A DNA stretch of 64,000 nucleotides from Rhexocercosporidium sp. MPI-PUGE-AT-0058 (lineage: Eukaryota; Ascomycota; Leotiomycetes; Helotiales), in assembly GCA_020746875.1 (NCBI GenBank), contig JAGTJL010000005.1, positions 2,046,001 to 2,110,000 on the forward strand, written 5' to 3'. Under the pieces are notes generated by a model, which had not been told where the DNA came from, ran no database searches, and worked only from the letters and a program-made list of their open reading frames with translations. Positions 6,131-60,278 of the stretch are shown here, piece after piece (position 1 is the stretch's first letter; each line of letters opens with the position of its first letter). The translations under genes were made by a program, and so were the position numbers.

Positions 6131-6628
6131 GAAGACCAGCAAAGGATCTTGCCCGCAAGTAAAGAGGTTTCGTTTTGTCGCTCAGTGGCCGGGAGCTTGC
6201 GCAGCAACATGCGCGTGGATTGAAACCAAACAACTGAAAGAGGGAGTGTCAGCAATGGATCGGGTCCGGACTCTACTTGGATATGTAGGCAGTTGTGCGA
6301 GGCTGTACCTGATGGAAGTGGGGGCCCTTTGCAATTGCTGTAGTCGACATGAAATTCGGATTTTCATCTGTCTTTAAACGACTTTTCTCGAGTTGAAACT
6401 TCTGTTGTGCATCTCAAGAGCTGGTGGCGCAAGATGCTGAACGGAAACATGCGTCGAGACACCTCAGCAATCATCAAAGATATCTTTATCTTCACGTGAC
6501 CGTATATTTTCTTTGACCATGGCGATAATTTTCACCTACAGTAGACAACAATTCATGTCGCTAACGTTTTCGTTATGTGCCGAAATTTATGACGTTTTCT
6601 TCAAAGTCATCAGACTCAGATTAAGCTG

Positions 6629-8437
6629 ATGAGTCTTCGTCGAGCAACATTCATCCCCAGCTCCCTCCTCAGATTTGGTCGAGTCACACCTCCAGTCAAC
6701 CCCACTAGAGTGTTTTCTTCATGTCCTCACATGAAACGAAAACAATCCGAGATCGAGGAGCCTCCGCAGTCTAAGAGGTCTAGAGGCAAGATGACCACCA
6801 CAAAAATCAAACTTACCCCCCGGGAGAGTCAATTAAGGGAGCTCTTACTTGACGTAGCCCGCTATATCGACGAGTCCAAGGAGATCAAAGAGAAAATTGA
6901 GCTTCGTTTTGCGGGAGGATGGGTCCGAGACAAGCTCCTTGATATTCCCAGTCATGATGTCGACACAGCTATCAACGCCATGACAGGCTATGCCTTCAGT
7001 ACCAAGATGCGAGAATTTCTCAAGAATGAGGAGAACTTGGAAAAACATGCTCTGGAGGCCAAAGACCTGGGCAACCTCCACAAGATTCTAGCAAATCCCG
7101 AAAAGTCGAAACATCTCGAGACAGCTACTACTAAAATATTTGGATTCGATGTGGACTTTGTTAATTTGCGGAAGGAAACCTATTCAGATGACAGCCGAAA
7201 TCCTCAAATGGAGTTTGGCACTGCAGAGGAGGACGCCTTAAGACGGGACGCTACAATCAATGCACTCTTCTACAACCTCCGTACCGATTTGGTTGAAGAT
7301 TTCACATCAGGCATTGAAGATCTCGCTGCTCGTCGGATTCGAACTCCCCTCGAACCAAAAACAACCTTCACAGACGATCCTCTACGTGTGTTGAGGTTGA
7401 TTCGTTTTGCAAGTCGGTTAGGATTTAGTATTGATCCTGCGTCTGAAGCTTCCATGAGTGACCCTGCTGTTATGGAAGCTTTGAAGTTGAAAATCAGTCG
7501 AGAGCGGGTTGGCGTTGAATTGGAGAAAATGCTAAAAGGTTTGTTCTTGTTTCTTTCTTCAATTTATACTAACAAAATTCCAGGCAATGATCCCATGGGC
7601 TCTCTCCAGCTAATTGATCGACTTGGTCTCTACTCCACCATCTTCACCGACCCAACAACACCAGGAAGCTCTGCACCTACAACAAGCAACTGGGTCATCG
7701 CTTACACATGCTTGAACGAACTCAAGTCCAACGAAACCCCTGGTTCGATCTACCAATCCCTAGTCCGTTCCGATGATGCCAAATACCTAAGCTGGGTCCT
7801 CGCAGCCATCACACCATGGTCTCAAATGCCACTCCCACAACCCGCCAAACCTGGCGGCAAGCTACCTCCACCTCTTGGCAGCATGGTCGTTCGAGAAGGA
7901 ATCAAGTGTGAGAACAAGATCTGCAATGTCGTCACCGGAGCTTTCAGACACCATGAGGAGATCACGGCTTTAAAGGATGCGATTGTGACGAAGATGGACT
8001 ACACTTCTCAGCGGGATACGGTTGGTATGGCTATCCGACGGTGGGATGCGCAAGGTGGACATTGGCGGCTGCAGGCTCTGTTTGCTCTCCTGGTTGAAGC
8101 TTTGAAGAGAGATTCGAAATGTAAGTTGCTGTGCACATCACCAACTGTGCCCCCTGCTAACAGCTCTCCAGCATATAAAGACTTGTTCGGGGAATGGCAG
8201 CAACTCATCGATCACTTGGAAGCCATGGAGATCATGGATGCACCGGCCGAGCGAAGTATCATCGACGGCAAACTGTTGTCTAAGGAACTTGGTGGTGTGA
8301 AACCAGGAGTGTGGATGCGTCCAGCGTTGGAGGTGGTCATGGAGTGGCAGCTTCGCAATCCAGGTGTGACGGAGTACAAGGGGGCTGTTGAGGAGGTGCA
8401 AAAACGGAGCGCCGAGTTGAAGATACCAATGCCATGA
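6629..8437 (+). CDS. CCA1: tRNA CCA-adding nucleotidyltransferase
   Basis: This enzyme adds CCA to tRNA 3' ends in nucleus, cytosol and mitochondria. Class II motifs are clear: GGWVRD at residues 96-101, HDVD (Asp110, Asp112 metal ligands), the RRDATINALFYN block, and DDPLRVLRLIRFASRLGF, then RERVGVELEKML. Residues 1-34 are Arg/Ser-rich like a mitochondrial presequence. A second ATG at 6731 (Met35) begins MKRKQSE, followed by a bipartite basic patch, so two start sites could give two locations, as known for yeast CCA1. Introns are predicted at 7539-7583 (45 bp, branch TACTAAC) and 8121-8171 (51 bp, branch GCTAAC). Both are multiples of three without stops, so the frame stays open through them. 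Spliced length is 570 residues, and 602 if both are retained. Confidence 0.93.
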   Translation: MSLRRATFIPSSLLRFGRVTPPVNPTRVFSSCPHMKRKQSEIEEPPQSKRSRGKMTTTKIKLTPRESQLRELLLDVARYIDESKEIKEKIELRFAGGWVRDKLLDIPSHDVDTAINAMTGYAFSTKMREFLKNEENLEKHALEAKDLGNLHKILANPEKSKHLETATTKIFGFDVDFVNLRKETYSDDSRNPQMEFGTAEEDALRRDATINALFYNLRTDLVEDFTSGIEDLAARRIRTPLEPKTTFTDDPLRVLRLIRFASRLGFSIDPASEASMSDPAVMEALKLKISRERVGVELEKMLKGLFLFLSSIYTNKIPGNDPMGSLQLIDRLGLYSTIFTDPTTPGSSAPTTSNWVIAYTCLNELKSNETPGSIYQSLVRSDDAKYLSWVLAAITPWSQMPLPQPAKPGGKLPPPLGSMVVREGIKCENKICNVVTGAFRHHEEITALKDAIVTKMDYTSQRDTVGMAIRRWDAQGGHWRLQALFALLVEALKRDSKCKLLCTSPTVPPANSSPAYKDLFGEWQQLIDHLEAMEIMDAPAERSIIDGKLLSKELGGVKPGVWMRPALEVVMEWQLRNPGVTEYKGAVEEVQKRSAELKIPMP

Positions 8438-13089: not shown

Positions 13090-16000
13090 CTAGTCAATGG
13101 GCTGCTGCTTAAACAGACTCTTACCCATCAACCACTTCCTATAAGCCTTATACCTCTTCTTCCCTAAATCCTCCTCGAAAACCATCAATGGATTCTCACC
13201 AACCGTCAGAAAATCCTTCGCCTCAGCCACATCCTCACTACTTCCGCCGGGCTCCTCATCACCCGTTGTCACGATGCCAATGTCGCACCAGCTGCCATTC
13301 ACGTACTCGAGATATTCGGCATCGATCTCGGTGGGGATCTCGTTGCTGACTACGAGAGGGAGCGTTTGGGGGTGCGAGATGTAGCGTGCATAGTCATCTG
13401 TTTCTTGTGTGCTGACGGAAGGGTTGAGGGATTCGTGCACGACTTGCGTGAATGTCCATTGGGCGGCTTTGCTTTTGTCGAGGGGTGTGAGCTTTTGCTT
13501 TTGTGGGGAGAGGTTTGGTTGTTGGGGTTCCTTCATGATGCTGGGGTGATGCCCGTTTTTCTCGTGGATTGGTTGGAGCCAGCGTTGAATGGAGATGCGT
13601 TTGGTGTTTACAGTGGTGCCGGATTTGATGGAGGCGTTGTCGTCGTCTGCTGCTGCCGCCTCGGTTTCGTCCGCTGGGTCTACGATGGTGACTTCTTTCT
13701 TGATTTTCTTCTTGTCGGGAACGTCTTGGTCGAGTTCGGTTCGGACTTTGAATGGCGATAAATCGTAACGTCCTTCTTGGGTAGAGCGGAATGGGATATA
13801 GCGGATTGTAGAATTGATTTTTCCCATGTAAGAGAAAACTTTCAGAAGTGATGATACGGAGAGAGGCTTGTAATACTCAAGCCAGTACTCGTCAAAGTAA
13901 CCGAGTGGCTTGCAAGCCATGAGACCAGTAGGGTCAACATGTGGTGGCAGTTCCCTCTTCTCAAGAAATTCGGGGGTGTACCAATTGATGTAGCTGCGTC
14001 TTCTCTTGCCAGACCAAGCACGAGGGTTGGCATGGTGAAGGTAGTAGTCTGTCGCTAGATCCCATAGCATAGGTTGACCTTGGACGAAGATATAGTTTCC
14101 TAGAAACAGATTGTACGCTTCTTGACGCTGGCCGTCTAGGAAAGAGTTGTTGTAATACCGCTTGAAGCTCTCTACCATATCTCGCGAATGGCTCGTCCAT
14201 TGGTTGATTTTGCGATACGTTTCCATGGTATTTACGAGCTGTGAACCGCCGTATTGAATAGCTATTGTATCACCATGATCATGGTACATGTGCGTGAAGA
14301 GGTTGACAGCATCAGTGTCGTAATCGATCGATGTATCGCCAATAATCCCCAGAGCATGAAGCTGGTGACCCAGAGCTCGCTTTCCGATGACAAATTGTGC
14401 TGCATTCGTCCGATCCAGACAATCAATACAGTTCGTTCTTGCAACTCCATTCTGCACTCTGGGCATGGCGATCTTTCCATCTCCATTGTGGAAAAAGCCA
14501 GTAGTTGTGACTACTTCCTCGGCAATGTTCTCAAGCGTACCGATGACATCCTGATCACGGCTCTTCGATGCCCTGCTCATATCCCAGGCTTTGTGTATGA
14601 TTTTCTTGTCATCAGGGAGGAACTGATTGAGATAGTTGATGGCATTGGTGAATTCATGGAGTAGCTTCGACTCACGGGGAGTCCTCTCTCGGGCTTTCAC
14701 AAGATTGAGAACATAAACAGGGGCACCATATCTCTCAAATAGGTTGTCAAAATGTAGAGCGGCAGCGCTATAGAATGGATCGACAAGGTTTAGTTCGATT
14801 GGTGGTTTAGGGGTCACTCCAGTATTATCCTGTGTCCAGTACAGTGGTATACTTCCTCTATGCTGGACGTATGAAGTGAAGTTCGGACTGGCGAAAAGCT
14901 TTGGGCCAGGGGCATGGAAAGATGTCGTTAACATCTCGGAGACGATCTGCTCGGTTTCTACGTCATTGGCAACATAGCCCTGACTGGTTAGCCACTTGTG
15001 TATTCAAGCAGAACTCATTCCATACCAAGTCATTTGCACCTCGCTTCAAGAAACGGGCACCAGCAAAATACCGTGAACGTCTTGCGATGATGGTAATATA
15101 GGCGGTACGGCCATATATCGAAAGGGCTAAACGTGTTAATTGGACCTCAAAACAAGATTCCAGACATACCAGACTGGTCGATGTAGCCATGAATGACTGG
15201 CATACACCAATCATAGGTGTTTTTCAATGCAGACACCGCAGGCTGCAGAAGGTAGCTATTCCACACGAACATCGAGTTGTAGTCTTGGTCATGAGGATAA
15301 GGTGTCCCTTTAGCTATTGCCGCCCGCTCAGTCATGATATTGTGCTGTAGAGTTCGCGTGATGTCGTATGAATAACTGTAGTAAAATGACCTGGTCAAAT
15401 CCAGATTGTTAAGAATACCAATGAATCGAGACTCCTCAGTGTTCCTGAGATCTGGCTTGAAGCGCGAGCCAGGGCCTGTAGTCAAGGGAATGAGTTCCGT
15501 AGCATCAACGGAATATGTGAAATGGCCACCAATCATAGCCACTTGGCTTCGTTTGGTTATAATCAGCATGTAGTAAACTCCAGTGAAACGTATGAAGCCA
15601 ATGATGCCCCAAGTGGTAGACCTCAGCTTCATACCCCCAGTACTCTTGTTGCCATCGTCAATAGCATTCAACAACTGGCTCATTTCTTTCTTGGTGTAGA
15701 CGATTTCATCTTCTGAGATGTTCAGATTCCCAGAATCTGCAGTCCGGTCAATTTTCAGGATCCGGAACCGTCTGTCCATGACATCTGCACCGACAAAATA
15801 ATACCTTGTGGCGGTTTCGTACAAGGAGAACTTGTGCATCTTGCAAACCCCTTGATCTCCAACCTTTTCGTATTCTGCTCCCTTATTCCTCTTCAGGTCT
15901 GAGTTCGGGCTGGTGCTTCGCTGGAATGGACGTGCCGTACACTCTTCGTCGTCCTCGTCATCCCCTCCGGAAGAGGGCCTCTTGGATTGCTCTGAGCTCT

Positions 16001-24127: not shown

Positions 24128-27100
24128 TCATTCCCAAAATGAATAACCTGCTGTGTTGTGCTTGTCTGTAGATGCGATGCTAAGTCGCTCTTTCATCTTT
24201 ATTAGTAGGTCGCTGACCATAAATGGCTTCGACATCACGGAATCCTGTCATGGTCAGCAAAACTCCTAGTATTGAAGGATTTGGGCTACGTACAATTCCA
24301 CTCGCAATCGCCGTCTCAATCTGCTCGTCTCTCGCATTCGCGGTAGTGGCGATAATCTCAACATGTCGTGTGATCTTATTCTCGGTCTCAAGCTTCCGAA
24401 TTTCTCGACTGCATGTCAACCCATCCATTACAGGCATCTGCCAGTCCATCAGGATGATGTCGAGATGCTTCGGCTCGGCCGGTTTCTCGAACCATATGTC
24501 GCTCTTGCGTAGCATATCTAATGCTTCTATGCCATGATTCGCTACGTAAACAACGCAACCAGCTTTGACTAACTGCTTCTGTACGATTTGCTGGTTGACG
24601 AGATTGTCTTCCACTAGAAGCACATGAATCTTGTTGAAGTCGACCACTGGAATTTGAAATGCCGATGACATTGATCTGGATCGAATTGGTAAAGACACTT
24701 GGGCATTTTTAGGTGTCGATACGCCATGTTGCTCGGTGCGCCGAGATTTGACGTAGAATGCGAATGTACTGCCCTTTCCTGATTGGGATGACACACCGAT
24801 TTCGCCGGATTGTTTTTCGGCGAGTCTCCCAGAGAGAAACAGACCAAGGCCCTAGATTTAGCCTATTAGCAATGCATTCCATGGTTTGCAGATGTGATAA
24901 AAATTCGTGGAGTCCTCAAGGGAGGGCTATCTTGACGAATTTAACGATCACTTACAGATCCACCGTACTTGATTGACGTCCTGGCGTTGGCTTGTTTGAA
25001 ACGACCAAAAAGCTTTTTGATTTCATCGTTTGTCATACCGATGCCGGTATCAGTGACGGATATCGTGAAGTATAAGGGCTCTCCAAGACCCCACTCCGGA
25101 TGCTCTGTCAAATCTTCCACTTCCCGATGATTCGGTGCCCATTTGATATCATTTGAAAATGAATCCCTTGGGGTTGAAGAAGTGACTCCGTATTCCACCT
25201 CAATCTTGCGGCTGCTTTCCGCTTTTGTGAATTTGATCGCATTCGTCATCAAATTAATGAAGATCTGCTGCACTCGGGATTCATCGCAAAGTATCCAATC
25301 ATCATAGTGATTTCCAAGAGATGGATGTGCTTTGGTTTTGATGGTAATGTCATGAGAAAGCAGCTGGGACTCGAACATTTTCATCCACTTGTCTACTAGC
25401 TCAGGAACCTGTACTGGCAGTGGGGAGACGGATAGCATTGTGTACTCCAGCTTCGAGAGGGTCAATACGTCATCCACAATCCTCTTTTGGTGCTTTGCGC
25501 ACATGAGAATTGTTTCCGCATTGTCGATGTTCCCTTTCAAGGCACCGATGAGTTCAGACTTTGTAGGATCGTTGCCATCAGATGCTGGAAACGAGGTAAT
25601 GATTGTCTCAGCCAATTGAAATATTGCAGAGAGGGGATTTCGTAATTCGTGAGAGACGAAATCAATGAACTCTTCCTGCTGACGTTTCGCTTCCTGGGCT
25701 GCAGCAGCCTTGCGAGCCTCGGATGCTTCGGCCCATTTGAAAGCAGACACATCTGTTGTGAAAGCCATGAGGGACTTCAGTCTCCCTTCTTCTACTACCC
25801 GAAAAGCGTGGATAAGCACAATTGCAGGTTCAGGATCTCCAGATGGCGGAGTGAACATCCTTTTGAGACGCATCTCGGTTGAAATTCTAGCTTCTCCCTG
25901 AACTAAACGTTTCCAGTTGACCATGGCTTTGGCTTGATCTTCTTCAATGAATACATCCATGAATGAAAAGGGGTATTGAAATTCTTCTGCCCGAGGGTGC
26001 TCAGTCAGTCGATAGTATTCGTCGTTCGCCCAAATCAAACTACCATCGACAGCAATGTACTGCATACCTACCGATGCATTTTCGGCCATATAGCGAATTT
26101 GCCTCATACGGTCAGCAAGTTCTCGTTGGAGGCTCGCTTCTCGCTTCCTAGTCTCCTCTGCACTCAGGATAGAACCAGCAATCGAGGATATCTTGGATCT
26201 CAGATCTTGCATGAACTGGTAGTAGTCGTCATCAACAGGTCTCCGAGGATTTGATCCAACAACGAGAAAGCCGAATAGTCGTCCGGGGTCCGAAATCGGG
26301 AGAATCGTTATGAACTTGCTTGGCTCTCCGAATCCACTCCACTTGATGCCATCAAAGGTCTCGTCGGTTGGGACTGTGATCATTTTCCACCGAGCTTTTC
26401 GCAAAAGTGGCATGAGTCCAATGTCGCTGCTTATGTCTGCTGCTTCGACTTTTAATGGATGATCCTCCGGGAACCCAATATTACCCCGCAAGAACAGAGG
26501 GCATGATCCAGGTATTGTGTCGTCCGCTTTGTATATCATAGCCATGGGGAAGTCCCAGGGATTTTCATTCAACATCGGCAAGATATGGCTTGCTAACCTT
26601 CGTTTGTCCTCTGCTGGTGGAACATGTAGCCCATTGAGCGTAAGCCGTCTCCTTTCGTTGATCTTCGCTTTCGTGACTTCGTGAACGGAATTATAGAATC
26701 CCTCAACCTTTCCAGTACCGCCTCGAAGAGGAACGAAATTTCCCGAAAAGAAAGCCTCTTCTAAAAATCCGTTTCGCTCCACAAACATCTCCATCTCGTT
26801 CAAAACAGATGCCCAGCCAGAAATCTCGGCTTGACTGAAGACTGGTTGTATGTGATGCCATATCTCTGGAAAGCCTTCTTGGAATGTCGAGCCCATTAGA
26901 TTCGGGTGTGTCTTGCCGGCTAGAGGGACAAATGCTTCGTTGTAAATGGCGACCTGGTGCGGACCCCTAGAGTTGCCTGTCAGAAACTAAACCTCGCAAT
27001 CTCTTGTATATGTAAGCCCTACCAGTAGACACATGCTGCCCTTGAATCTGCGAGTACCATGAAGGTAGATTGCTTCAAGGCACTACTCCATTGCGCCAAA

Positions 27101-45525: not shown

Positions 45526-46542
45526 TCAATCAACCATAACATCTTCAAATGCCTTCCGGAACGATGTCAAGTTTTCTCCCTCATCAAAGATCGCAAAGGT
45601 AATCTCTTCGATGCCAGTAACGCCTTCCTTTCTCCGTCCACCGAGGATCACCTTTCTGAATAACATTGCAACCTCTTCTGGGGGATTGTGGTATGCACCG
45701 CAGCCCAGAGCACCGAGAATTAGATGAGTGATGCTCTTCTCCTTAGCAATCTGGAATATCAACCGAATCTTTTCTAACATAACCTCTCTATCTTTTTCTT
45801 CCGAGTATATCATCTTTCCATCCCCTCCCTTTTCAACCTCCGGTTGTCTCAAAGCCGCGCACGAAATGACACCCGTGTAGAACCATTCGGATTGCGGTAG
45901 ATCAACCAGATCAGAGCCACGGAAAACGAGAACGTCGGGCGTGTAGATGGCAGAGAGGAGCGGCATGCGGTAGAAGTCTGGGTTAAGGGAGGGGTAGAGT
46001 GTACTCCTAGTGCAAAGAGCTTCTTCTTGGGCAAGAGCACCTCTCAAGACACCACCTCCTGGTTGTAAGGCAGAAGCCATGTTAAGGACTGCGACTGATG
46101 ATTTGGGATGGGATCTGATCGTTGCTTTGGCAGCATCGAATGTATCGGACTTGATGATGCGAATTCTAGGAAGAGTGATGACAGGAGAGGCCGAAGTGAA
46201 TTCGGAAATCGATGGGGATGGATCGATTTGGTGGAGATCCTCAACCTTGCGTTTCTTCGAAGGTCTGTGAGATGAATCGACTCTAAACCCAGACAGAGGA
46301 CTGCATGTATGCATGCCCTCTTTTTTTGATGCGTGTGGAGGCGTCTCCGATGGTATCCTTTCAAACTCAGCTGAGCTTCTGGGCGTTGGTGTAGATCTCT
46401 TGATGACATTCCCCGGCGAGAAATGAATAAGCTCGCTGCGCTCGACACCCGTTCTTGCGCGCGCATGGGACTTTAGAAGGCGGGGAATTATTTCGTTGAT
46501 AGTCTTTTTGGCCAGCTTGGCCCGATTGGATTTGTTCAGCAT
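45526..46542 (-). CDS. Bacterial-type poly(ADP-ribose) glycohydrolase (DUF2263)
   Basis: A single-exon gene of 338 residues. The macrodomain-like catalytic part has AVLNMASALQPGGGVLRGALAQEEALCTRSTLYPSL: the signature GGG-x7-QEE (Gly162-164, Glu173-174) defines bacterial-type PARG, which removes poly(ADP-ribose). Further conserved pieces are VLVFRGSDL, VISCAALRQP and LGALGCGAYHNPPEEVAMLFRKV. Residues 50-115 are a Pro/Ser-rich linker with the basic patch RPSKKRKVE, a plausible nuclear signal. The family is known in bacteria and filamentous fungi. The partner PARP is not in the window. Confidence 0.9.
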   Translation of the reverse strand: MLNKSNRAKLAKKTINEIIPRLLKSHARARTGVERSELIHFSPGNVIKRSTPTPRSSAEFERIPSETPPHASKKEGMHTCSPLSGFRVDSSHRPSKKRKVEDLHQIDPSPSISEFTSASPVITLPRIRIIKSDTFDAAKATIRSHPKSSVAVLNMASALQPGGGVLRGALAQEEALCTRSTLYPSLNPDFYRMPLLSAIYTPDVLVFRGSDLVDLPQSEWFYTGVISCAALRQPEVEKGGDGKMIYSEEKDREVMLEKIRLIFQIAKEKSITHLILGALGCGAYHNPPEEVAMLFRKVILGGRRKEGVTGIEEITFAIFDEGENLTSFRKAFEDVMVD

Positions 46543-47425
46543 CGCGGGTGTCGTATGCGGGGTAGGTGAGTCTGGTGTTCTGGTGAGGTCGGTCTTCTGC
46601 TGGGTATCTAACCTGGATAAATATCTGTTTGCCTGAAAGAAAGTTGTTGTATGAAAGAAGCAGATGTAAACCAGAAGAGAGTAGAAGTACGACTCGGGTT
46701 GTAGTTGCCTAAACGAGACCGGAATCTACCTACGACAAGTCACGATGACTCCACGTGACGAGGCGAATCTGGAAGGTGCAGAACTACACAGAAGCTGAGA
46801 TAGAAGCACATAAAGTGTTGCAATAGTTCTTTATTATGTGATCATAATCCTTTTTTGAAACAATGAATTCAAGACCAGTTTTGAGGATCTCAGTTGGCAG
46901 GTGGCAAGTAGGTACCGATACAGCTAGGTATAGTACAGGTGGGGCTGCTAGCCCCTGGCTAAGATGCACTCCCTTCATCTTCATCTTCTGTTTCACCTCA
47001 ATACAGTTTAACTACAACTTTTACAATCACCCAGCATAGTAACAACAACGTGGCAGAAGCAGTTGCACTCAAGGTTATCAAGTTGTTTCATGAGTACATC
47101 CGAGGCGCATTCAGTACACGCGCTCAACTCGGATGTATTTGGGTCCATCTGCTCCCCCCCCCCAGCTTTGCAGAGCTAGAAACCATCCCGAAAGCAGACC
47201 CCTAAAGCATGGCATGTAAAGACAATAACATACAGGTTTTCAAAATACAGCATATACAATCCCCGGGTATCATTGAAAGCTTCCGATCAGTATCGCCAAG
47301 CCTGGCTCATGCCGCGTTCCGTCCTTAGAACACCGTAGCCTGACCGTCTATCCCCTCATTTTCCATTCCAATATACAACTCTTGCGCCAAACGCCATGCC
47401 GATAATACAAAAAGAGGAAGATCTA
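46543..47425. other. Spacer of 0.9 kb, no recognised gene
   Basis: PARG promoter and the 3' region of the retropepsin-like gene; includes a C9 run near 47156. No coding or RNA signal is supported. Confidence 0.5.
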
Positions 47426-48961: not shown

Positions 48962-50011
48962 AAAGTACAATCTGTTAGGCGCGGTTGCCCGGTCACTGCA
49001 TCATGTTCCTCGAGATTTGATGCCTCAAAAGCCGTGAGATGAGAGTGAGGCGGATGCCTGACAGCGATTAACGACCGACAAAACATAAGGCGGGCTGCTC
49101 ACACCTCGAAGCCTCTGGCGGGGAAGCAGGCGATGCCAAGGTAAGTATCGTGGGATTAGAACGGAGAAGGTCAAGAATATACAGGGCGTGTTCCGAGACC
49201 GAAAGCTCAACCTGTGGTTGGCTTTTGCCTCCATAGAAAAGCGAAAGCGGCTTGACCATTCGTCGCAGAATAAATAACTGAGGTGGATTTAGCCCGATCT
49301 ATCCACTTCCCCTCCAATGTTGTCGACGCCGATTAGCATCCTTGCAACTACTTCTTATCAGGAGAATTAATGGTCATCATTTCAAACAGCCAATAGCACA
49401 AAAGTCTACAAACTATACATCGCATTCGCGAGACAAATTCGTGATGGCATACCCAGCGTGGCATACCTTAGAAATACCTGGGGGATAATTGCCAGGCAAT
49501 TCGAAGTTTCTTCCAATTTTCATCTCAACTCTCCACTTTCACAATAGAAGCATTTGGAGGGAGTCTAACCTGGAATGCTGAAATCCACCACCGCAATTCG
49601 ACTTTGCTTGGTGCCTGAGTTTCTGTACAGTGGTTTCTCTGCTGATAAAGCCAGCACTGCAGAGGCTGCGAATGGATATTCAATGTCAGTGGGAAAATAT
49701 TTCCACAGTATCGGCGCATTTCTCGAATTGAGTGCAGGATGTTGGTCTATAGCATCCGTCAACGACCATCGGTCTGTCCATGTGTCTGTAACCAGCAATT
49801 TTGGTTCCGTAACTTACAATGTGAGGCTGTCGTTGCTGCCCGACGAGTGCTTTTCCGGATGTATCACCCATCAGCTCAAAATAAGGCTGAAGAAAGCCTG
49901 ACGTCCGGCTCTCAAGTACCGATAAGAGTAAGTCAAAGAAGACCGTAGCTAGAACCTTTTTGTAAAGAGCCAGACTGACATTCTTTTCCTGCTTCGAAAC
50001 CTAGCAGGATA
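48962..50011. other. Divergent spacer of 1 kb
   Basis: It separates the divergent retropepsin-like and DUF6594 genes. Open frames on both strands at 49525-49901 (plus and minus) look somewhat protein-like, but splice phases do not join and no family is recognised. Confidence 0.4.
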
Positions 50012-51185
50012 ATGGAAGGGTACGCTAAACTCGCGAATTTGATGGGGCATGACCATGCAGATGGCCATTTCCTGATCTTCCAAAAGTTCGAACCCCTGAG
50101 TGCCCAAAATCTACTATACCTTCAGTCCGAGCTTATCAATCTTCAAGAAAGTCTCCACAACATTGTGCAAAGAGACTCCGAATCGGAAGACCCCGAGAAA
50201 CTGCTCTTCGCCAAAGACTGGGAGGCATTGAGCTCAGCAACTGAGAGTGCTCAATGGCAGATCTGGCTCGAAATCCGCACCAAATTGAAAGAATACTGTA
50301 TGAATTTTCCCAGATCGTACCACCTAGCATTCTAATAGCGATAGACGAAGCAATTTCTCAGCACCGAATGATGACTAGTCTCCCCGCACCGAGCTCATAC
50401 GATTTAAAATTCCTCCAGCAATGGCTGGAACGACCTGGACTAGGCAATTGCGCTCTCGTGGGAGCCGACAGCGACGTTTACGAAAACCATAAAAAGTCCG
50501 GCCTGGTTACATTGGCAGCGCGCCAGCGAGAGGTAGATGCTATGACAAGACTTTTTGTTGACAAGCTTCCCAAATTATTCCACTGGGTAATTGTTCACCC
50601 TCTACACAGGTTTTGTGGCTGGTGGATCAAGGTATGGCAGATTCGCGATGACTTTTGCTGCGCTCCTGCTGAATAATATGATAGAAACCCGTGGATTTCG
50701 TGAACCAGGTCACATCAGAGGCTTCTTCGACGGAGGAAGGTCAGCCCAAAGGCTCCCACGACACACAGTGCGCCTCTACAGCAGTCGCTGAGTCCACATC
50801 CTCTTCAGCACAAAACAATGAGGAGATAGACCTCGAAAGCAACATGTTTCTCTACCGCGACTCACACATTTACCGCATCGCCACGATTCTTGGGACACTC
50901 CTGTCATCACTCATCCCCATCGCAGCAATCATCATTCTTTCATTCGTCAAGAATATGACTGCAAGGCTGGGAATCGTGTCTGCCTTCACGGCGATATTTT
51001 CCGTCTCTCTGTCGCTGGTGACAGAAGGGAAGCGTGTTGAGATTTTTGCTGCTACTGCTGCGTAAGCATATTCTCTTTTGGGCTAGGAGTATGGACAGCT
51101 TTTGAACAGTTGAACTAACTTTCAGGCTAGATTTGCGAGTGTTCAAGTTGTGTTTATTGGCAGTACGAATTGGAATCAAGGATGA
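50012..51185 (+). CDS. DUF6594 membrane protein
   Basis: Four exons (50012-50297, 50339-50586, 50685-51061, 51131-51185) give 321 residues. The N-terminal block MEGYAKLANLMG, FLIFQKFEPLSAQNLLYLQSEL and YDLKFLQQWLERPGLGN is the usual DUF6594 start; the C-terminus has three hydrophobic segments (IATILGTLLSSLIPIAAIIIL, LGIVSAFTAIFSVSLSL, and FASVQVVFIGS after the last splice). The family is common in leotiomycetes and dothideomycetes, of unknown function. Intron sizes 41, 98 and 69 bp; the last acceptor is GGCTAG rather than the nearer TTTCAG, chosen because it continues AATAARFASVQ-like family sequence. Confidence 0.82.
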
Positions 51186-51997
51186 CTCCTATTACGTCTT
51201 TCAAAGTCAACTAAAAATAGTTCCTTTAATCTCATCTGGAAACGGAAGTTGGGAAACAAATGCTCCTCTCGCAGTCATATTTTACTTATTGTTGTCTTCT
51301 ATAAAGACGAGCTTATCAGTACAAGAAGGTGAGACTTTGGCTGTTTGGCAGGTATGGACTCGTTAACCCTGGGACGGGTCGCCCAGAGAGAAGCGAGCCC
51401 CACTTCCCCTGAATCTGACATCCAACCTTTCTGCGACGCGTTCGCGGTTGTTCATTGATATTTTCATCCTCGTACTCGCAAGAGCCGGACGTGTCCCATT
51501 GGAGAGTTACTATGTTCCTGTCAGCGTTGGTTTCATCTCATTTGGATCTTGGCCAGTGGCTATGCACATCCCATTAGCACCGTGCGGCGGAATAACAAAT
51601 ATTGGTGGAGGTGGAGTCATGCAGGCACACGGGGTATCGCAAAGTTGCTGACGCCGCAAGGGCCGTTTACTCGTGTCGTTAATTTCCTGTGCATCGTATC
51701 ATCGTATAGCAGGTCGCGAATAGAATCATGACGCGACATGGCCTTGTCGGTAGTCCATTCAACCGCCTCCGTCACACCCGGTCATGCTCGTCACGCGGCG
51801 TAGAGTGTGCTTACATCCTCGAATTCCCACTTGCATAAATTTTTGATTCTGTGAGCTCATATACTTGTTTGTTAAGCTCTTTTTGCTTGTTGTAGCTACT
51901 ACATTTTGACCTTTTTTCAAGACATTTATTTACATATCTCAGCACACTCGCTTACCGAACCGAGGTTGAGATTCTCTACTGCCCACTATATCTCACA
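51186..51997. other. Spacer upstream of the microprotein
   Basis: It holds the DUF6594 3' region and the promoter and leader of the small spliced gene. Nothing else is recognised. Confidence 0.5.
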
Positions 51998-52219
51998 ATG
52001 GAGACTTTCATCATCGTTTTGCTGGCCTTGACAGGCATCATTGTCAGTGTAAGTTACTGCTCATTCTATTCTGTCGGTTTCGTTCTTGAAACTCAAGTCT
52101 AAGTGTTCGTCCTGGTCTAGAGGGCTATCAAAGATATACTAACGTATCAATTCTAGATAGGATGTTTGTCTCTGATCAAAATTGGAGCTGATCGAAAAAA
52201 ACCGGTGTCGAACGTCTAA
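51998..52219 (+). CDS. Candidate 37-residue single-pass membrane microprotein, spliced
   Basis: Exon 1 (51998-52048) and exon 2 (52157-52219) join in phase 0 over a 108-bp intron with GTAAGT donor, a perfect TACTAAC branch site and TTCTAG acceptor. The protein starts METFIIVLLALTGIIV and runs through GCLSLIKIGADRK to a stop after 37 residues. Residues 3-24 form one membrane helix, and the tail is basic with the di-lysine RKKP. The start codon context TCTCACAATGG has A at -3. The textbook intron, the stop immediately after a tidy TM-plus-basic-tail layout and a pyrimidine-rich leader support a real gene. Function is unknown, and conservation was not tested. Confidence 0.5.
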
Positions 52220-53420
52220 GTCTACGTATTGGTTGTTCAAATCAACATTAGGAACTGGGAGACAGCATCGTCCTGTTAGCCATCATACTTTTTACACTTG
52301 TTTCATGATACTCTTGCATCGGCTCCGCTGGCAAGTCGACACTTGTATGACTATTCTTGCGAATACGAGCAAGAATTCCCTCTCAAACCCCTCGTGCTTC
52401 ACTACGGAGCACATTCGCCGCCTTACCTACCGACCTTTCGACACCGCCACCCACACAAAATCACGGACCATGATGGATATTATCACCACCTGCCTTGCTT
52501 GACTCTCGCATTCTTGTAGGATTTTGACAATCGAGCTCCACGAAATCTTCTTCCGGACATCTGATGTCATCGCCAAACAAACTTTACGATGTGATCAGAA
52601 TTGCGGCAGGTCAACACAAGCTTCATTGCACCACCCAGATGGGTCAAGAGCATGTGAATTTGCCTGGTCCCTCGAACGATACCACAGGCGAAGCTCACAT
52701 TTCTGCATATCAGTCAAGGAGACCGGGGACTAGAGATTAGGCTCCAAGAAGGGAATTTATGTTGGGAGAGGATTTTGTCGGTGCGAGTTCCGGTACGAGT
52801 CGTCACATTGCCGCCAGCTTTCTTGTATCAGCATACAAAATATGGAATTGATCATAACCATGCAAGCAGGATCTCCGAAAATGGTAATTGACCTTACTGT
52901 ACCTCTGTCTCCTTTTCTATTTGATTTCCACAACGCTGCTTGTCCCTGGCAGATCCCAGAAAGCTCTGGTGTTTCATTCACGCTGCTCTCGGCATCGATT
53001 GATATGTGGTATGGTATATTCACCGTCGCTTCATCATTCCCATATCGCTGAAGATATTTAGCCGCTTTAAATCGCGCATCGGGATGTTCGCTTTTATTTT
53101 TATTTCATGATCACATGATTATCTACCGAGCGCTCAATCTTCACACCGGCTTGCCGCCTTGTCGCCGCCTTGCGAACCAAAACCATGAGGCGAAGCAAAC
53201 ACGAGAAACACGTGAGCCATCATTGGAGCCTGCGAGATTTCTTCTATAAATTGGCCCTCCCCCATCAAGGAGAATTGAAATTTTTATTAGACATCATACA
53301 CCCTCCTCATCCGCTGTTCCCTTCGTTCTTTTGTCGTGAACTTCTCAACCATCATTATTATAGTCGCACTTCCATCTTCCTCCTTCCTATCAATACCTAC
53401 TGCAAAATTCCCGAGTCAAC
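52220..53420. other. Spacer of 1.2 kb upstream of the reverse transcriptase gene
   Basis: Short unsupported frames only. The last 300 bp, with pyrimidine-rich tracts (CCTCATCCG, CTTCCTCC), are the likely promoter and leader of the downstream gene. There is no LTR, target duplication or poly-A tail at its 5' side. Confidence 0.5.
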
Positions 53421-56400
53421 ATGGCTTCCACAGTGTTCTCAGAAACACTCCAGTCAATCACAACCACCAAGCTCACTGAGCTTTCCAAGAAGCGATCCAT
53501 CTTCGAAGAGCACAAAGCATCTTTGCTACTCGCTACTCAAAGCGAATCAGATCAGAAGCAGCGACTTGGCATGCTCGTCGACGGTGTCAAAAAATGTTTC
53601 TCCATCAAAGCCGCTCCCAGAAAGCGCGGAGACCGTCGAGGTGGCGCTGGTCGAATTATCTCCGGCACCAGCGACCCAAAGCTCGAAGTCATACTCAAGA
53701 ACCTCGAGCGCTTCCTCGACCAAGCAAAATACGACCCTTCCATCTCTCCAAAGCTCCTTCAAGACTGGGAAGATTCGCTCTTGAAACGACTCAATGTACA
53801 GTCTTTGAAATATCAGTATGCCACTCTATACGGCGAACTGGTCACAGAGTGGCTTGGCGCAGAGAAAGCTTCTCTCCTAGACAATGTTTCAGAGACATCA
53901 GAGGGGGTTGAGAAAATTAAGCCAGCTGAAAGAGACGAATCTCGCATCGCGTGGGAGAAGCTCGTGTTTGAGCCATTTGAAACTGATCAGATGGCCATCT
54001 CTGAGTACCTCCGTGCTCTCTTCGGAGAGACCAGCGATAATAAACAAGGATTCAAGGCTTTGCAGAAGCTACACAAGGAAGTTGAGGCTTTTGAAGCTAC
54101 TCTTTCGTTACCGAATCAGTTCGATGAGACTGTCCTTCGCTGGACTATCAATGGCCTGATCGCATCGGTATTGCTGAGTGACGAGAAGCGGGGTGCTTTG
54201 AAGGACTTTTTAGGTAGTCCAGTCATTCTGGCTGAGATTGCAGATGTTTTGAATATGCGCATCGCAGATATTTCAGAGGTATGTGTCTAAATTTCGCCTC
54301 TGTATTCTACCCTTGCACTCTTTTCAGATGCTTGTAGTTGAAAATTTGTGACTATCCAGCTTGACACGATCCAAGTCAGTCATTGACTTTAATTCTAGTG
54401 GTCTTGGGACGATGAGGTGCTTATAGAGCAACGAAGACAAGTGACAGGTTCATATCGCAGTAAGTCGGGAGTGGCTCAATTTTTCTGCCCCCCTCGTATC
54501 TTTCCAGCCCCTCATAATCCGGACAGCTCGCTAATATCCCTATAGTTTACATAGATGAAGAACTTCTCCAAGCGATTTTCTTGCAGTACGTGGGAGTCAA
54601 ATGGTGCATTTTCTTCAAGGAAGCCTTCGTCAATTTCTCAAATTTCGATGGTGCTTGGACATCACTACGACCTCAGATCCCACTTGAAGATAGAAAAAGA
54701 AGAGAGTACTTCCTGGGAGCCCAGAGAAAGAAGTACAGTGTGCAGGGCAAGCGTCAGAGTGTTTATAAGTCCATTTTCTTCATGTCCCAGCTGCAGGATT
54801 CAACATACGAGGAGAACAATGCACTTGACGGCGAAGAGGAGGCTAATTACGAACATGCCGCCAAGAGAAAGAGATCTGGAGCTTCAGGTGCGCTTCAGTC
54901 GATGGGCAATGCGTCACAAATGCAACAGATGCAACAACAGCAATTGATGGCGCAGCAACAAGCCGCCGCACAACAAGCCGCCGCACAACAAGCCGCCGCA
55001 CAACAAGCCGCCACACAACAGCAACAGCAGGGACAAAATCACGCTCTTCAAGATCACCAAATGCAGCTGATGGTCTTGGAGCAGCAAAACAAAAGACGCC
55101 TCCATATGGCACGGCAAGAGCAAATTCCGATGATGCAGCAAATGCAAGCCCGTGGCCCAGTATACATGAACTCGATGCATCCCGGAACTGGACCACATCG
55201 CAACCACAATAGCGACGAGTATGATGTGGATCTGACCAATCGGCCTAATACACCAATGGCCACCAAGCAATTCCTCTTGCATCTCCTATCAACTGAAGTC
55301 CTTGTGAACACTCGTCTTCATGGAGATTTCACCTGCTCCCGCTCCGAGTTTCAATCTTTCAGTCCGTCCCTACCTCACTCTACAATTACTTCAGTGCTTT
55401 CATTCTTGGGGCTGTCGGACAAATGGCTCGGGTTCTTCCGCAGGTTCCTCGAAGCACCTCTGAAATTCACAGCCGATGATCGGAGTGTCGCAACGAGACC
55501 ACGCAAACGTGGTGTTCCCGGCTCTCATGCGCTGTCCACCATTTGCGGAGAAGCTATCTTGTTCTGCTTGGACTATTCTGTGAACCAAAATACTAATGGT
55601 GCTCAACTGTACCGAATGCATGATGATTTCTGGATCTGGTCCTCGTCGCACGAGACTGTCGTCAAGGGCTGGGCAGCCATCTCGACCTTCGCTGATACCA
55701 TGGGCGTCACTTTGAACTATGGAAAGACTGGTACAGTTCGTATCACCAAGGAGCCAAAATCTTTTGAAATTGACCCTTCTCTTCCAGCTGGCGAGATCCG
55801 TTGGGGTTTCTTGGTCATGGACCCCTCCTCTGGTCGTTTCGTCATTGATCAGGATATGGTTGATTCGCATATTCTCGAACTTCAACGCCAACTGGCCGAG
55901 AAAGATAAGAGCGTATTCTCCTGGATCCAAGCCTGGAACACCTATGCTGGGACTTTCTTCAAATCGAACTTCGGTACAGCTGCCAATTGCTTCGGTCAGG
56001 AGCACGTCGATATGATGCTATCCACAATGACTCGAATCCAGAAGCGCATATTTTCTGACAGCAATGTGGTCGAGTACCTCAAGAAAACCCTGCATGATAG
56101 GTTTGGTATCGTTGATATCCCGGATGGATTCCTCTACTTCCCGACCAGCCTCGGTGGTCTCGAGCTCCAGAATCCTTTTATCGGACTGGTACAAGTTCGC
56201 AATGCTGTCTTCGAGCAACCAGCAACTGTCTTCGAAGATTTCTTCGAAGCTGAAGCAATTGCCTACCGACGAGCCAAAGCATGGTTCCACAACGGCAGCG
56301 TAAATCGTAATGGGACACTTGAGCCAACCTTCCGTCCTGCAGATTACCGAAGTTTCATGTCCATGGAAGAGTATACGAGGTACAGAGAAGAGTATCATTG

Positions 56401-56671
56401 TGGATATGAAGGCGACTTGCTGTCAGTCTACAATGATTTACTACAGAAGCCGGGACCGGAAGACGTTGATATCTCTGCTGATGAGGAGACTATGCTGGAC
56501 GGGCTCAGTGGGACCAATGAAGAGGATGATGGTTATATGAAATGGGTCGCTTTGTTGTACGGGCCAGACATGGTGGAGAGATTTGGGGGTTTGAAGATTG
56601 TTGAGAAGGGTTTGCTGCCTATGGGAATGGTCACTCTTTTTAGGAGTGGGAGGGTCAAGTGGCAAGGTTAG
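53421..56671 (+). CDS. rvt: Cellular (domesticated) reverse transcriptase, rvt family
   Basis: Three exons (53421-54278, 54399-54459, 54546-56671) give 1014 residues. Residues 1-290 are a helical, partly coiled-coil region without known motif. The palm follows: motif A carries Asp567 in LHGDFTCSRSEF, motif B is RGVPGSHALSTICGEAILFC, motif C is YRMHDDFWIW with Asp666-Asp667, motif D is GVTLNYGKTGT, and motif E-like sequence is GEIRWGFLV. A long Gln/Ala-rich loop (about 426-470) sits before motif A, where rvt proteins have their variable 2a insertion. There are introns, no endonuclease, RNase H, integrase, LTRs or repeats, so it is not a retroelement. Known rvt genes are single-copy in fungi and polymerise both NTPs and dNTPs in vitro. 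RT motifs are certain; the family name is by recall. Confidence 0.88.
54956..55015. repeat. 15-bp minisatellite coding the Gln/Ala loop of rvt
   Basis: Four units of CAACAAGCCGCCGCA lie in tandem (the last with CCACA), in frame, coding QQAAA-type repeats between RT motifs. CAG/CAA runs flank it. It is a likely site of length variation between strains. Confidence 0.9.
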
Positions 56672-57848
56672 GGATAGACAAGAAATCGTCGTGAAGAGAT
56701 AAAAGTTCTGGGGCTACTGCGGCCCAACGTCTCTGTATGCTTTATCTTTCTTATTATAGTTGGCGGCAGTACTATTATCGAGATATACGAAGGATCTTGA
56801 TTGCGTAAGACAAAGTTTTCCGTTGAGCTTTGATTCCACTTTTTGATCAACTTCTCAGCAGATTTATCATGCAAGTCTATCCACATCCGTCCTCGGAAAC
56901 GTCGCTAACACTCTGCCGATCAAATACACGTGCCATATTCTGAGGCGCCTCATGATATGGTTGATCGAACGTGAGTTTGTAATTGACGTGTTTTGCAGAA
57001 AATAGGCCACTTACTATGTTAAGGCAGTGGAGGGAGGCGGAGCTGTGACCAAGAAGATGCTGTTAAGCGACGCGTGGAGTAAACAAAGACCAAGTCGGGC
57101 TTCTGAAAAGTGGAATAAGGCCAAAAGCTAAGGCGTAACTCCCTTGCCTCGAGACGTTTCCTAAAACATCGAAATCTGAACATTGAAGAAATTGCTGTGC
57201 CCGTCAACCCTATCTTACATGAATTAGGACTACCGATGGACACCATTTCTAGAACATAGCTACCCTCCACCAGCTCGGGTTACGCCTACCCCGCTATTCA
57301 GCCTTTTCCATATAATCAATAACTATCGAAATTATTTCTAGCAGTCGAGACAACTTCACCATTTACAACATCTTGATAAGTAAGATTGCTCCCCTTATCT
57401 AACCCGTACTTGATGAAATCGATGGAGCGTCTTTCCCAAGGTCGTGTTATATTTCGACACTGAGCTACGCCCATGCTCAAAACCTTGCGGGAAAGTAGAC
57501 ACAACGCACCCAACCTGCACAACTGCTACAACTCTCCGGTATTAATTCCTCGGTAAAAATTCGAGCCAATTTATAAGGAGAGATGGCTGATCAGTCTTAC
57601 TGAATCTGAACTGTATTCTGACGCACCATTCAGCGACGACGCAGACAGCTTGATGCGCATGTACGAGGACTGTTCTAGTTCATAAGCAGAAAAGCAATCG
57701 GTAGTTCTGAATGTATTTTCAAGGATTTCTTCGCCCTGGGTAACATCTTTCAGTCTTACTCGCGTGGGATCAAAAATTGGACTAAAGGAGCGGGTATCAA
57801 AGATATGTCGAAGATTCAAGAACTCGCTACATCGAATGAGATGCTTTG
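56672..57848. other. Spacer of 1.2 kb
   Basis: This is the 3' region of rvt, then sequence upstream of a decayed gene. Minus-strand open frames at 57571-58002 are long but unmatched and are antisense to the decayed gene. No terminal repeat, tail or target duplication marks the rvt 3' side. Confidence 0.4.
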
Positions 57849-58614
57849 ATGAATGATTTAGCACATGTTGTTGTGTTGCAAAACCGCGAGCTCCCTGAAG
57901 GACTGTCAACACAAAAGTCGCCATCGGTCCTCTTAAATGCACTTCTAGCCCACGAGATCTACGCAAAAATCGTTTGCAACCCTGTTCTTCTTTCTTCATC
58001 AAAGGGGATCAGACAAGAATCAGAAAGACCTACTGTAGCAAATGAGCTCAGAGATATTTACAAAATGTCACAAGAACGTGAGTTATTTATTCAATCCGAC
58101 TTCACCACCGGTCTAACGTTTGCAGCCAACCAAGAGGACGCGCACATACGGCGAACCCAGACTTTGAGACTGCTTTTGCCGCCATTTTGAGAAGACCCAT
58201 GCACAACTGGACAGAATGCAGGCTTGCAGAATTCTTATCTCAGGCAGCTTTTCAGTTCTCAGCCGGGCCAGCACATCACTTTATGACAATGGATTCCAGT
58301 GCCAAGACAAAATACAAGGCAAAGCTCGACTCGATATATCAAGAAGCAGCGACGATTTCATACAATCTGTGGACGCGGAGGACATTCATGAAATGCACGA
58401 CTTTGAAGGATATGGGAAGTCCGATATTCGCCCCGGAATCCTCGAGTACGGTAGCCCACTCGTTGGTACACCCTGATGACCACGAGGGGCGACTAATGGG
58501 GGGACATATCTCGGTGATCGTACATCCACTACTTGAGGTTTTTTGGAAAGATAAGGGGAAGGATTATGATCATGCGCGGTGTGGGCACCTGCAGAAGTGT
58601 GGTTTGCTGCTTAG
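57849..58614 (+). pseudogene. Decayed uncharacterised fungal gene with two frameshifts
   Basis: Exon 1 (from ATG 57849) reads DLAHVVVLQNRELPEGLSTQ and LNALLAHEIYAKI. It splices at 58077/58126 (a 48-bp intron) into NQEDAHIRRTQTLRLLLPP. At the TTTT run 58184-58187 the frame must change to reach EFLSQAAFQFSAGPAHHFM, LWTRRTFMKC and ISVIVHPLLEVF. Near 58576-58580 it must change again to reach RVWAPAEVWFAA and a natural stop at 58612. This is a family of hypothetical proteins frequent in ascomycetes, with no known role; the usual N-terminal half is missing here. Two single-base losses plus truncation suggest a pseudogene. Confidence 0.6.
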
Positions 58615-60278
58615 TGCAAGAAGTAGTACGATTCGCGAGGTTGAGGCAAGGTAGCGTTGACTTGGAAAATTTTGGATGTTCCTCGTGTTTTTCAATCTTT
58701 TGGATTCTGAGTGGACATCACATATGCAGGAATACTGCGAAGTAGGGGTGGCCTGCCCCTTTTCTGTTAAGCGAGCCTGAGGACTTATTCTATGGAGTTC
58801 TAAAACCTTGAAAGGTTTCGAAGATGGACACTAGTTAGCATTGTGATTTAGCTTATTTTATCTTGTCTCTAGCGTTTGCATATCAATTTTCGTCTTTTTG
58901 CAATCTGTGATTACTAGGCCACGTGGAATCTGCATCCGTTGGCAGTCCTAAGCCGCAATCTGAGCCATCATCACAATATGGTGGTGGCTTTGACTCCATG
59001 AATCTCGGAGAAATTTACAATTTATGTGGATTTGCCATTCAGAGCATCGTTGAGTGCCTAAGCATGCAGTCCGCAATTCAGTTTTTTCAGAAAGTCTACT
59101 TCACCATGGCGCGGCTGATTTGGCTGGATTCTTCCCCGCACAACGAGGTACTTATTCATCTTCAGCTTGGCGAGGAGTTTATATTTCGAGTCCACCCGCA
59201 CGCTTTTGCCATAAATCCGTCAGACAACATAGAAGTCTCCTTTCCATTATCACTTTCTTAATCCTCAGCTCAAATGAATCGAAAATAGTTCTTAGTCTCA
59301 AGTAAACATTCGGAACAAGTCTCTGACCATCTCGCTTACATGAAAGCAGATTAGCACCGCACCCCACATCCCACTCTTCAAACAAAACCATCCCCAACCA
59401 CTAGCCATCTCCTCAAAATATATCCTCATCAGGACAAAATATCCCGCTTATTTCTTGGCACTTCAAGCTCCAAAACCTTCTTCACTGTCTCATCGCCAGA
59501 CTATAAATCGGGCCATGCCTCCGTTGTTGTTAGATGCTTCCGTTCGGCGTTTCGCAGGCGTGCTGTATCGTTTTGCCTCTTCTAGCTGGATTAGATGGGT
59601 CGAGAGATATCGGCTCCTGACTTGTCATTCGCGGAATGGATCCGAGAATGTGTGGCTTTGTTGACGAGATAGGTGCTACTTTCCCCTTTCATTTTTTTGA
59701 TTCCACCATGACGGATCTGGTTTGGTCAGCAAGTGATCATATGCTCTCCTTCTCTTTGGAGCGTTTTTGTAGCGCTTATATTGAATATATATTTCGGACA
59801 AAGAGAAAGTGCTGCTGCATCTTGATGTTCCAATTATATCAATTGAGTGTTTCCTCTGTTGACAGGAGTACTACTCAAAAATATTTCTATAGCATTTAGC
59901 AAGTACTTTTGAGCTTTAGTCGGTTTCCATTAGCTTAACTGCACACTTGGCTCTTCAAAATATCCTTGGGACTTGTCTCTTACTCCGCTTGATGGGTGTA
60001 CTTATGTTTGTGGACATTACCCCACTTCTAAGACTTGATAGCTTGTGAATACAGGGGGATCCCTAGCTCCTTTTACTACTTAAAACTCGAGCTCAATCCC
60101 GAATCACCCGGCTTCACCACGCCGTTATTTTCAACTCCCTACTCATTCTTGAACTTGGTCGCCTGTCCATCAAGAGAAGAAAACTTTACTTACCCGGTCC
60201 ACATCGTCGAATATTCTGGACTCATTTTGCGACGAAGTTAATTCTATACCTCTGTGTTTCTTAGCTTAGCTTCCAACC
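58615..60278. other. Spacer of 1.7 kb, no recognised gene
   Basis: Scattered open frames (for example 58923-59261 plus) have no family match or splice logic. The last 200 bp are the likely promoter of the 2OG-oxygenase-like gene. Confidence 0.45.

Follow-up and report, generated by a model that had tools for sequence, protein, structure and literature searches.

The described genes closest in architecture to the one studied here are the rvt genes, which have long N- and C-terminal regions. They are domesticated cellular genes resembling reverse transcriptases (RTs), with a large insertion before motif A (Gladyshev and Arkhipova 2011, cited in PMC5718144), and are described as single copy per genome (PMC10680173). 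The Neurospora crassa RVT is reported to be non-essential for growth, to be upregulated when protein synthesis is inhibited and to have terminal transferase activity (PMC3520738). According to a 2023 meeting report, rvt genes help to overcome starvation or antibiotic stress, a role that depends on intact catalytic residues, and perform non-templated polymerisation (PMC10680173). Here we analyse an RT-like gene at positions 53421..56671 (the window gene) of a 64,000-nucleotide stretch of DNA (the window), i.e., positions 2,046,001-2,110,000 of contig JAGTJL010000005.1 of the ascomycete Rhexocercosporidium sp. MPI-PUGE-AT-0058. A first-pass annotation had read it as an intact and probably active rvt gene. 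We find that it belongs to a lineage in which the motif A aspartate has been replaced, and in which a long, probably disordered loop preceding motif A often carries a copy of the histone H3 tail.

The window gene is like rvt in combining an RT fold with an insertion before motif A (loop 2a by position only) and no mobile-element parts, but unlike rvt it has a glutamate, E574, in place of the motif A Asp. Three divergent paralogues lie in the same genome, on contigs C7, C16 and C45 (42, 41 and 46% identity over the longest matched stretches), and all three have Asp at this position. Those on C7 and C16 are single open frames with 41-42% identity to exon 3 of the window gene, while the C45 paralogue has introns. 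Such Asp-bearing fungal paralogues share the architecture of the window gene, with Asp and the motif C DD, a short loop and no H3 mimic. A further match on C56 (L012) was rejected as a paralogue, as it spans only 33 residues of the Gln-rich loop (query 471-503), and there were also matches on C3, C34 and C12.

The window's lineage was sampled as the window protein with the best 120 of 572 homologues, to which a search directed at the loop added 15 proteins (136 rows), and the paralogue lineage as the best 120 of 268 homologues with the own-genome paralogues L009 and L010 (122 rows). Many rows are metagenome proteins and some are fragments; P-numbers (P0001 etc.) are our row labels. Among the matches listed, homologues of the Asp-bearing paralogues occur in Colletotrichum, Fusarium, Thermothielavioides and others, and no match listed in the three homologue searches bears the name rvt. 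Two paralogue-lineage rows, P0184 and P0190, come from records labelled as the liverwort Calypogeia fissa and may stem from a fungus associated with it. P0001, P0126, P0020 and P0334 had no NCBIfam match above cut-off, and a scan of genome contigs for bacterial relatives gave 66 pattern matches, none of which was confirmed. On a FastTree phylogeny (150 rows, 597 columns; loop and motif A column excluded, short rows dropped, paralogue rows thinned to every fourth) the window's lineage comprises 119 rows with a Shimodaira-Hasegawa-like support of 100. Placed as its sister is the Asp-bearing C16 paralogue, whose branch is very long (1.11), and the 122 Asp rows therefore do not form one clean clade.

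In an alignment of the window protein with 240 relatives and two paralogues from its own genome, the catalytic Asp column fell on residue 574, where the motif A block reads TCSRSEFQSFS in the window gene against VVRTDFASFG, VVQSDFKWFG and VIRTDFAWFG in the paralogues. This column is Asp in 121 of the 122 paralogue-lineage rows, with Ala in P0190. In the window's lineage (n = 136) it is Glu in 94 rows, Val in 16, Gln in nine, Ser in four, Ile in three and Asn in three, with five single others, and Asp in only two (P0099 and P0112). The first-pass annotation had placed the motif A Asp at D567, but column 567 is acidic in both lineages (133/136 and 113/122 rows) and so has no power to tell them apart. 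Structure models place the two residues likewise. In the AlphaFold2 model of P0001, an 88% homologue with an RT fold, D553 (window D567) starts the strand 553-561 and E560 (window E574) lies near its end. The latter is the place held by D424 in the predicted model of the paralogue-lineage protein P0126 (pTM, predicted template modelling score, 0.82), where strand 418-425 nears its C-terminal end; the DD of that model is in a hairpin, at 516-517. From the P0001 model the window gene is predicted to encode an RT-fold protein, and motifs B, C and D follow in order in its sequence.

With Glu at the Asp column, the earlier statement that the catalytic acids are retained and the protein probably active fails as written: the motif C DD is kept, but the usual triad is altered and activity cannot be inferred from it. 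DD is retained in 124 of the 136 window-lineage rows (the remaining 12 being 11 rows with a changed motif and P0067, which is without that stretch), and Asp and DD occur together in 118 of the 122 paralogue-lineage rows. An acid is found at column 574 (position 0) or at +2 in 133 of the 136 rows, so a shifted metal site is possible. The window gene might then encode an rvt-like polymerase that is still active, its metal ligand having moved or been swapped (E574; the +2 acid in many relatives), and that adds nucleotides under stress, as the terminal transferase activity reported for N. crassa RVT (PMC3520738) and the wide retention of DD would favour. Among the 40 lineage rows that lack an acid at 0, 37 are acidic at +2 (Fisher p 0.006, no fair probability as the rows are related), a position that in the paralogue lineage (n = 122) is Lys in 83 rows, Ala in 20 and acidic in just six. 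However, the window gene has Gln at +2, leaving E574 only, three lineage rows have neither acid, motif C is changed or missing in the rows given above, and the paralogue lineage has Asp almost without exception. Moreover, a change from Asp to Glu in a polymerase motif A usually cripples the enzyme. We regard continued polymerase activity of this kind as a serious possibility, albeit one we would not bet on.

The second property of the lineage lies in the loop, which spans 67-156 residues (median 99) against 21-33 in the paralogue lineage. These loops were inspected because source names such as 'histone H3' occurred among the homologues. Each loop was scored against H3 residues 1-44, with 200 shuffles of the same loop as its control, and frequencies were taken from 121 unselected window-lineage rows (the window protein and the best 120 of 572). 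A score of at least 60 was reached in 45 of these rows and of at least 40 in 57, and all 200 shuffles were beaten in 53, whereas none of the 122 paralogue-lineage rows reached 40 or 60 or beat all its shuffles. Exact H3 runs of at least 10 residues occur in 28/121 rows and of at least 20 in 5/121; the longest found correspond to H3 4-34 (31 residues, P0336), 4-31 (P0329, P0321) and 10-36 (P0332). The loop-directed search gave 281 matches, and among the 120 listed 111 were new. Fifteen of these were assigned to the window's lineage by hidden Markov model (HMM), including Paraconiothyrium, Paraphaeosphaeria, Periconia, Setomelanomma, Cosmosporella, Clonostachys and Apodospora records, and the other 96, which did not match the lineage HMM, were set aside. 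As the 15 had been found via the mimic, they were not counted in its frequency.

Shorter histone-like pieces occur in low-scoring loops as well, with QTAR in 14 of 76 (shuffle mean 0.17) and the H4-like GGA.RHR in five of 76 (0/200 shuffles) and one of 60 mimics; in the five low-scoring loops Met stands for H4 K16. Pieces resembling the H4 tail, for example GGAMRHRK, were noted in P0050, P0058, P0071, P0117 and P0113 (Met for K16), and also in P0010 and P0340. Outside the rvt-like HMM, P0341 and P0350 are long SET-domain (PF00856) proteins with an H3-tail-like stretch. The host's histone H3 gene (G000:C59:1943376-1943872) has an ordinary tail and an intron directly after the K9 codon. That some source records are named 'histone H3' raises the question of gene-model or assembly artefacts, i.e., fusion with a histone gene. 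Yet the same loop site is involved across many genome and metagenome records, only the tail is present, its divergence is graded, and five mimic-bearing proteins tested showed no Pfam histone domain at E up to 1, which makes an artefact very improbable. A likeness to the H3-like proteins carried by hAT elements in Pyrenophora was also rejected, as those are reported to have been found by the histone globular domain (PMC3538342). No histone mimic in rvt was reported in the titles and abstracts listed from the open-licence literature searched.

Mimic rows stand on both sides of the first split of the lineage (21 of 58, support 80; 36 of 61, support 95), and the tree requires 19 or more changes in mimic presence, 17 of them forced by starred branches. 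This fits an early origin with many losses, in a count that is blind to gain versus loss. Conservation was assessed in 60 mimics, i.e., the 45 unselected and the 15 found by the mimic itself. The six lysines (4, 9, 14, 18, 23 and 27) are kept at 0.40-0.68, whereas the 24 other positions of 2-31 are kept at a mean of 0.89 (lowest 0.72; rank test against lysines p 1e-4). With 20 representatives below 65% core identity the difference between lysines and flanks persists (p 5e-4), with T3, G12, L20 and S31 at or below the best lysine. Replacements differ by site: mostly Met at K4 and K18 (K18 also Arg), mostly Arg at K9 and K27, and mostly Gln at K14 and K23 (chi-square 3e-12 for 60 rows and 2e-5 for 20, descriptive because the sites were grouped after the counts were seen). 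A plain alternative is drift towards the Met/Gln-rich make-up of some loops in the lineage; outside the H3-like segment, the mimic loops hold 36% Asp/Glu, 3.6% Met and 5.3% Gln. Across 31 representatives (405 of 465 pairs, those sharing fewer than 20 positions being dropped), identity is 82.7% at non-lysine mimic positions, above the 56.3% of the palm and the 38.6% of the rest of the loop, which suggests that selection acts on the segment.

Lysine-to-methionine histone inhibitors offer a comparison for such H3-like peptides, as do the EHMT2-target mimics, for in these and in the relatives' loops a non-histone protein displays an H3-like peptide. The EHMT2 targets described as histone mimics, which carry an ARKS motif, are short (10-residue segments in the account given; PMC10611923) compared with exact runs of up to 31 residues here. 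The relatives' mimics further differ from the EHMT2 type in lying inside a polymerase loop and in having their lysines replaced more than the neighbouring residues.

The first-pass annotation was right that a Gln/Ala-rich stretch precedes motif A in the window gene, but this loop, a 156-residue Gln/Ala/Met-rich insertion, carries no H3 mimic: its score of 24 was equalled or exceeded by 115 of 200 shuffles and its longest exact run is three residues. It is the least conserved part of the protein, with 82% identity to P0001 against 91-95% elsewhere, and 67-68% to P0002 and P0003 against 82-96% elsewhere. In the P0001 model the corresponding loop is mostly of low confidence, with a helix at 461-483. 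The gene belongs to a 14-row subclade (support 98) in which no row scores 60 or more, while P0013, P0025 and P0038 in the same subclade keep SKQTAR and P0038 still scores above all its shuffles. Catalytic acids, mimic and loop could all be drifting as the gene loses function in the window's family, and the many changes in mimic presence (gain and loss not told apart) and a tandem repeat within the loop would suit such decay. Since the frame is open over 1014 codons, identity to P0001 is so much higher outside the loop than inside, and the motif A block CSRSEFQSFSPSLPHS is identical across the window gene and P0001-P0005, we consider decay improbable.

The gene is intact, with three predicted exons that give 1014 codons and a stop, and its exon-intron structure is that of predicted splicing. 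The exons, length, stop and motif positions of the first-pass annotation were reproduced:

53421..54278, + strand: exon 1, residues 1-286, a mainly helical N-terminal region (spliced translation; helices from the P0001 model)
54279..54398, + strand: predicted intron 1, 120 nt, GT...TAG (P0001-P0004 match the spliced product over this junction)
54399..54459, + strand: exon 2, 61 nt (spliced translation)
54460..54545, + strand: predicted intron 2, 86 nt, GT...TAG (spliced translation)
54546..56671, + strand: exon 3, RT motifs and C-terminal region, stop codon included (spliced translation)
54794..55261, + strand: Gln/Ala/Met-rich loop preceding motif A, residues 390-545, taken as loop 2a by position, without H3 mimic
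54951..55020, + strand: coding tandem repeat within the loop, 15-bp unit, 4.6 copies (repeat search)
55325..55327, + strand: codon D567, first annotated as the motif A Asp, in a column that is D/E in most rows of both lineages
55346..55348, + strand: codon E574, the motif A Asp position, Glu in the window gene (alignment, models)
55508..55525, + strand: motif B RGVPGS, residues 628-633
55619..55627, + strand: motif C HDD, residues 665-667
55712..55729, + strand: motif D LNYGKT, residues 696-701

Homologues in Leptodophora, Cadophora and Oculimacula are 79-88% identical over residues 280-1014, a homology far beyond chance. Could the gene nevertheless be, or be left over from, a long interspersed nuclear element (LINE), long terminal repeat (LTR) or Penelope element? 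Among solved structures, the R2 and LINE-1 RTs rank first by fold for the P0001 model (VIA-align), and for the paralogue-lineage model too. However, Pfam at E up to 10 gave only three weak matches on the protein, none of them integrase, RNase H or endonuclease, with RVT_1 scoring 13.1 bits where the cut-off is 29.6, and no LTR-like repeat was found in the 10 kb searched (50,000-60,000; repeats of at least 25 nt), where only the coding tandem repeat turned up. The absence of these hallmarks had been claimed beforehand, and the Pfam and repeat searches agree with it. The 5.25-kb DNA of the gene is present once in the 62.7-Mb genome, although single copy holds for this DNA and not for the wider family, as the three divergent paralogues share the genome. 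As these searches gave neither an LTR nor a partner domain nor a second copy of the DNA, and as introns are present and homologues so well conserved, a mobile element was rejected as scarcely credible.

The window gene is thus a conserved cellular, rvt-like RT-fold gene. Of the rvt architecture first ascribed to it, the intron-bearing conserved RT-fold gene, the insertion before motif A and the lack of mobile parts stand, while the catalytic triad (Glu at the motif A Asp column, motif C DD kept) does not, and the gene is not the sole one of its kind in the genome; for these two reasons we call it rvt-like and do not file it as an rvt member. The Asp-bearing paralogues fit the published rvt role, whereas the window's lineage, with its longer loop and the H3 tail mimics of many members, does not simply do so. 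An RT-fold protein that has lost catalysis is known in Prp8 of the spliceosome, to which the window gene has no demonstrated sequence relation and in which we know of no histone mimic.

The neighbourhood of the window gene is ordinary by Pfam, with Snf7 (1918-3306, -), Trs85 (3794-6181, -), a polyA-polymerase head domain (6593-8434, +), a SacI domain (13093-15003, -) and a PAS histidine kinase (24944-26986, -). A frame at 45529-46725 (-) has a microbial-type PARG catalytic domain (E 8.7e-23). Rfam and tRNA searches of the 64-kb window gave no matches, and TGASTCA, which we take to be a CPC1-type site, occurs three times in the window, against a shuffle average of 12.5, and nowhere near the window gene.

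Given these properties, the window protein may be an RT-fold, nucleic-acid-binding protein whose polymerase activity is strongly changed or lost and whose loop would serve as a flexible arm for docking. Members with the mimic could use this arm to present an H3-like peptide, as decoy or tether, to enzymes or readers of chromatin, and in the window's family a Gln/Ala/Met-rich arm would replace the mimic. We give this reading, a protein of RT fold that has a docking loop and whose polymerase activity is altered or lost, an even chance of being correct. Several observations weigh against it. The motif C DD, not needed by a fully dead enzyme, is retained in most of the lineage, as is an acid at 0 or +2. 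The window protein itself is without the mimic, so that any chromatin role it may have rests on its relatives. Furthermore, PMC10680173, as quoted, ties the stress role of rvt to intact catalytic residues, and such a role may not apply to the window's lineage. More tentatively, and with less conviction, we suggest that an ascomycete lineage of RT-like proteins may have given up nucleotide addition and become a regulator of chromatin. It would display a false H3 (sometimes H4) tail, its modifiable lysines swapped site by site, and so trap or recruit histone enzymes; in the window's family, as the next step, a Gln-rich arm would have taken the place of the tail.

A lineage with a changed motif A provides a natural test of which rvt functions require catalysis. 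If true, a 20-30-residue copy of the H3 tail in a polymerase loop, better kept than the palm and with varying lysines, would connect chromatin control with domesticated RTs, and this H3-like copy is directly testable with peptides.
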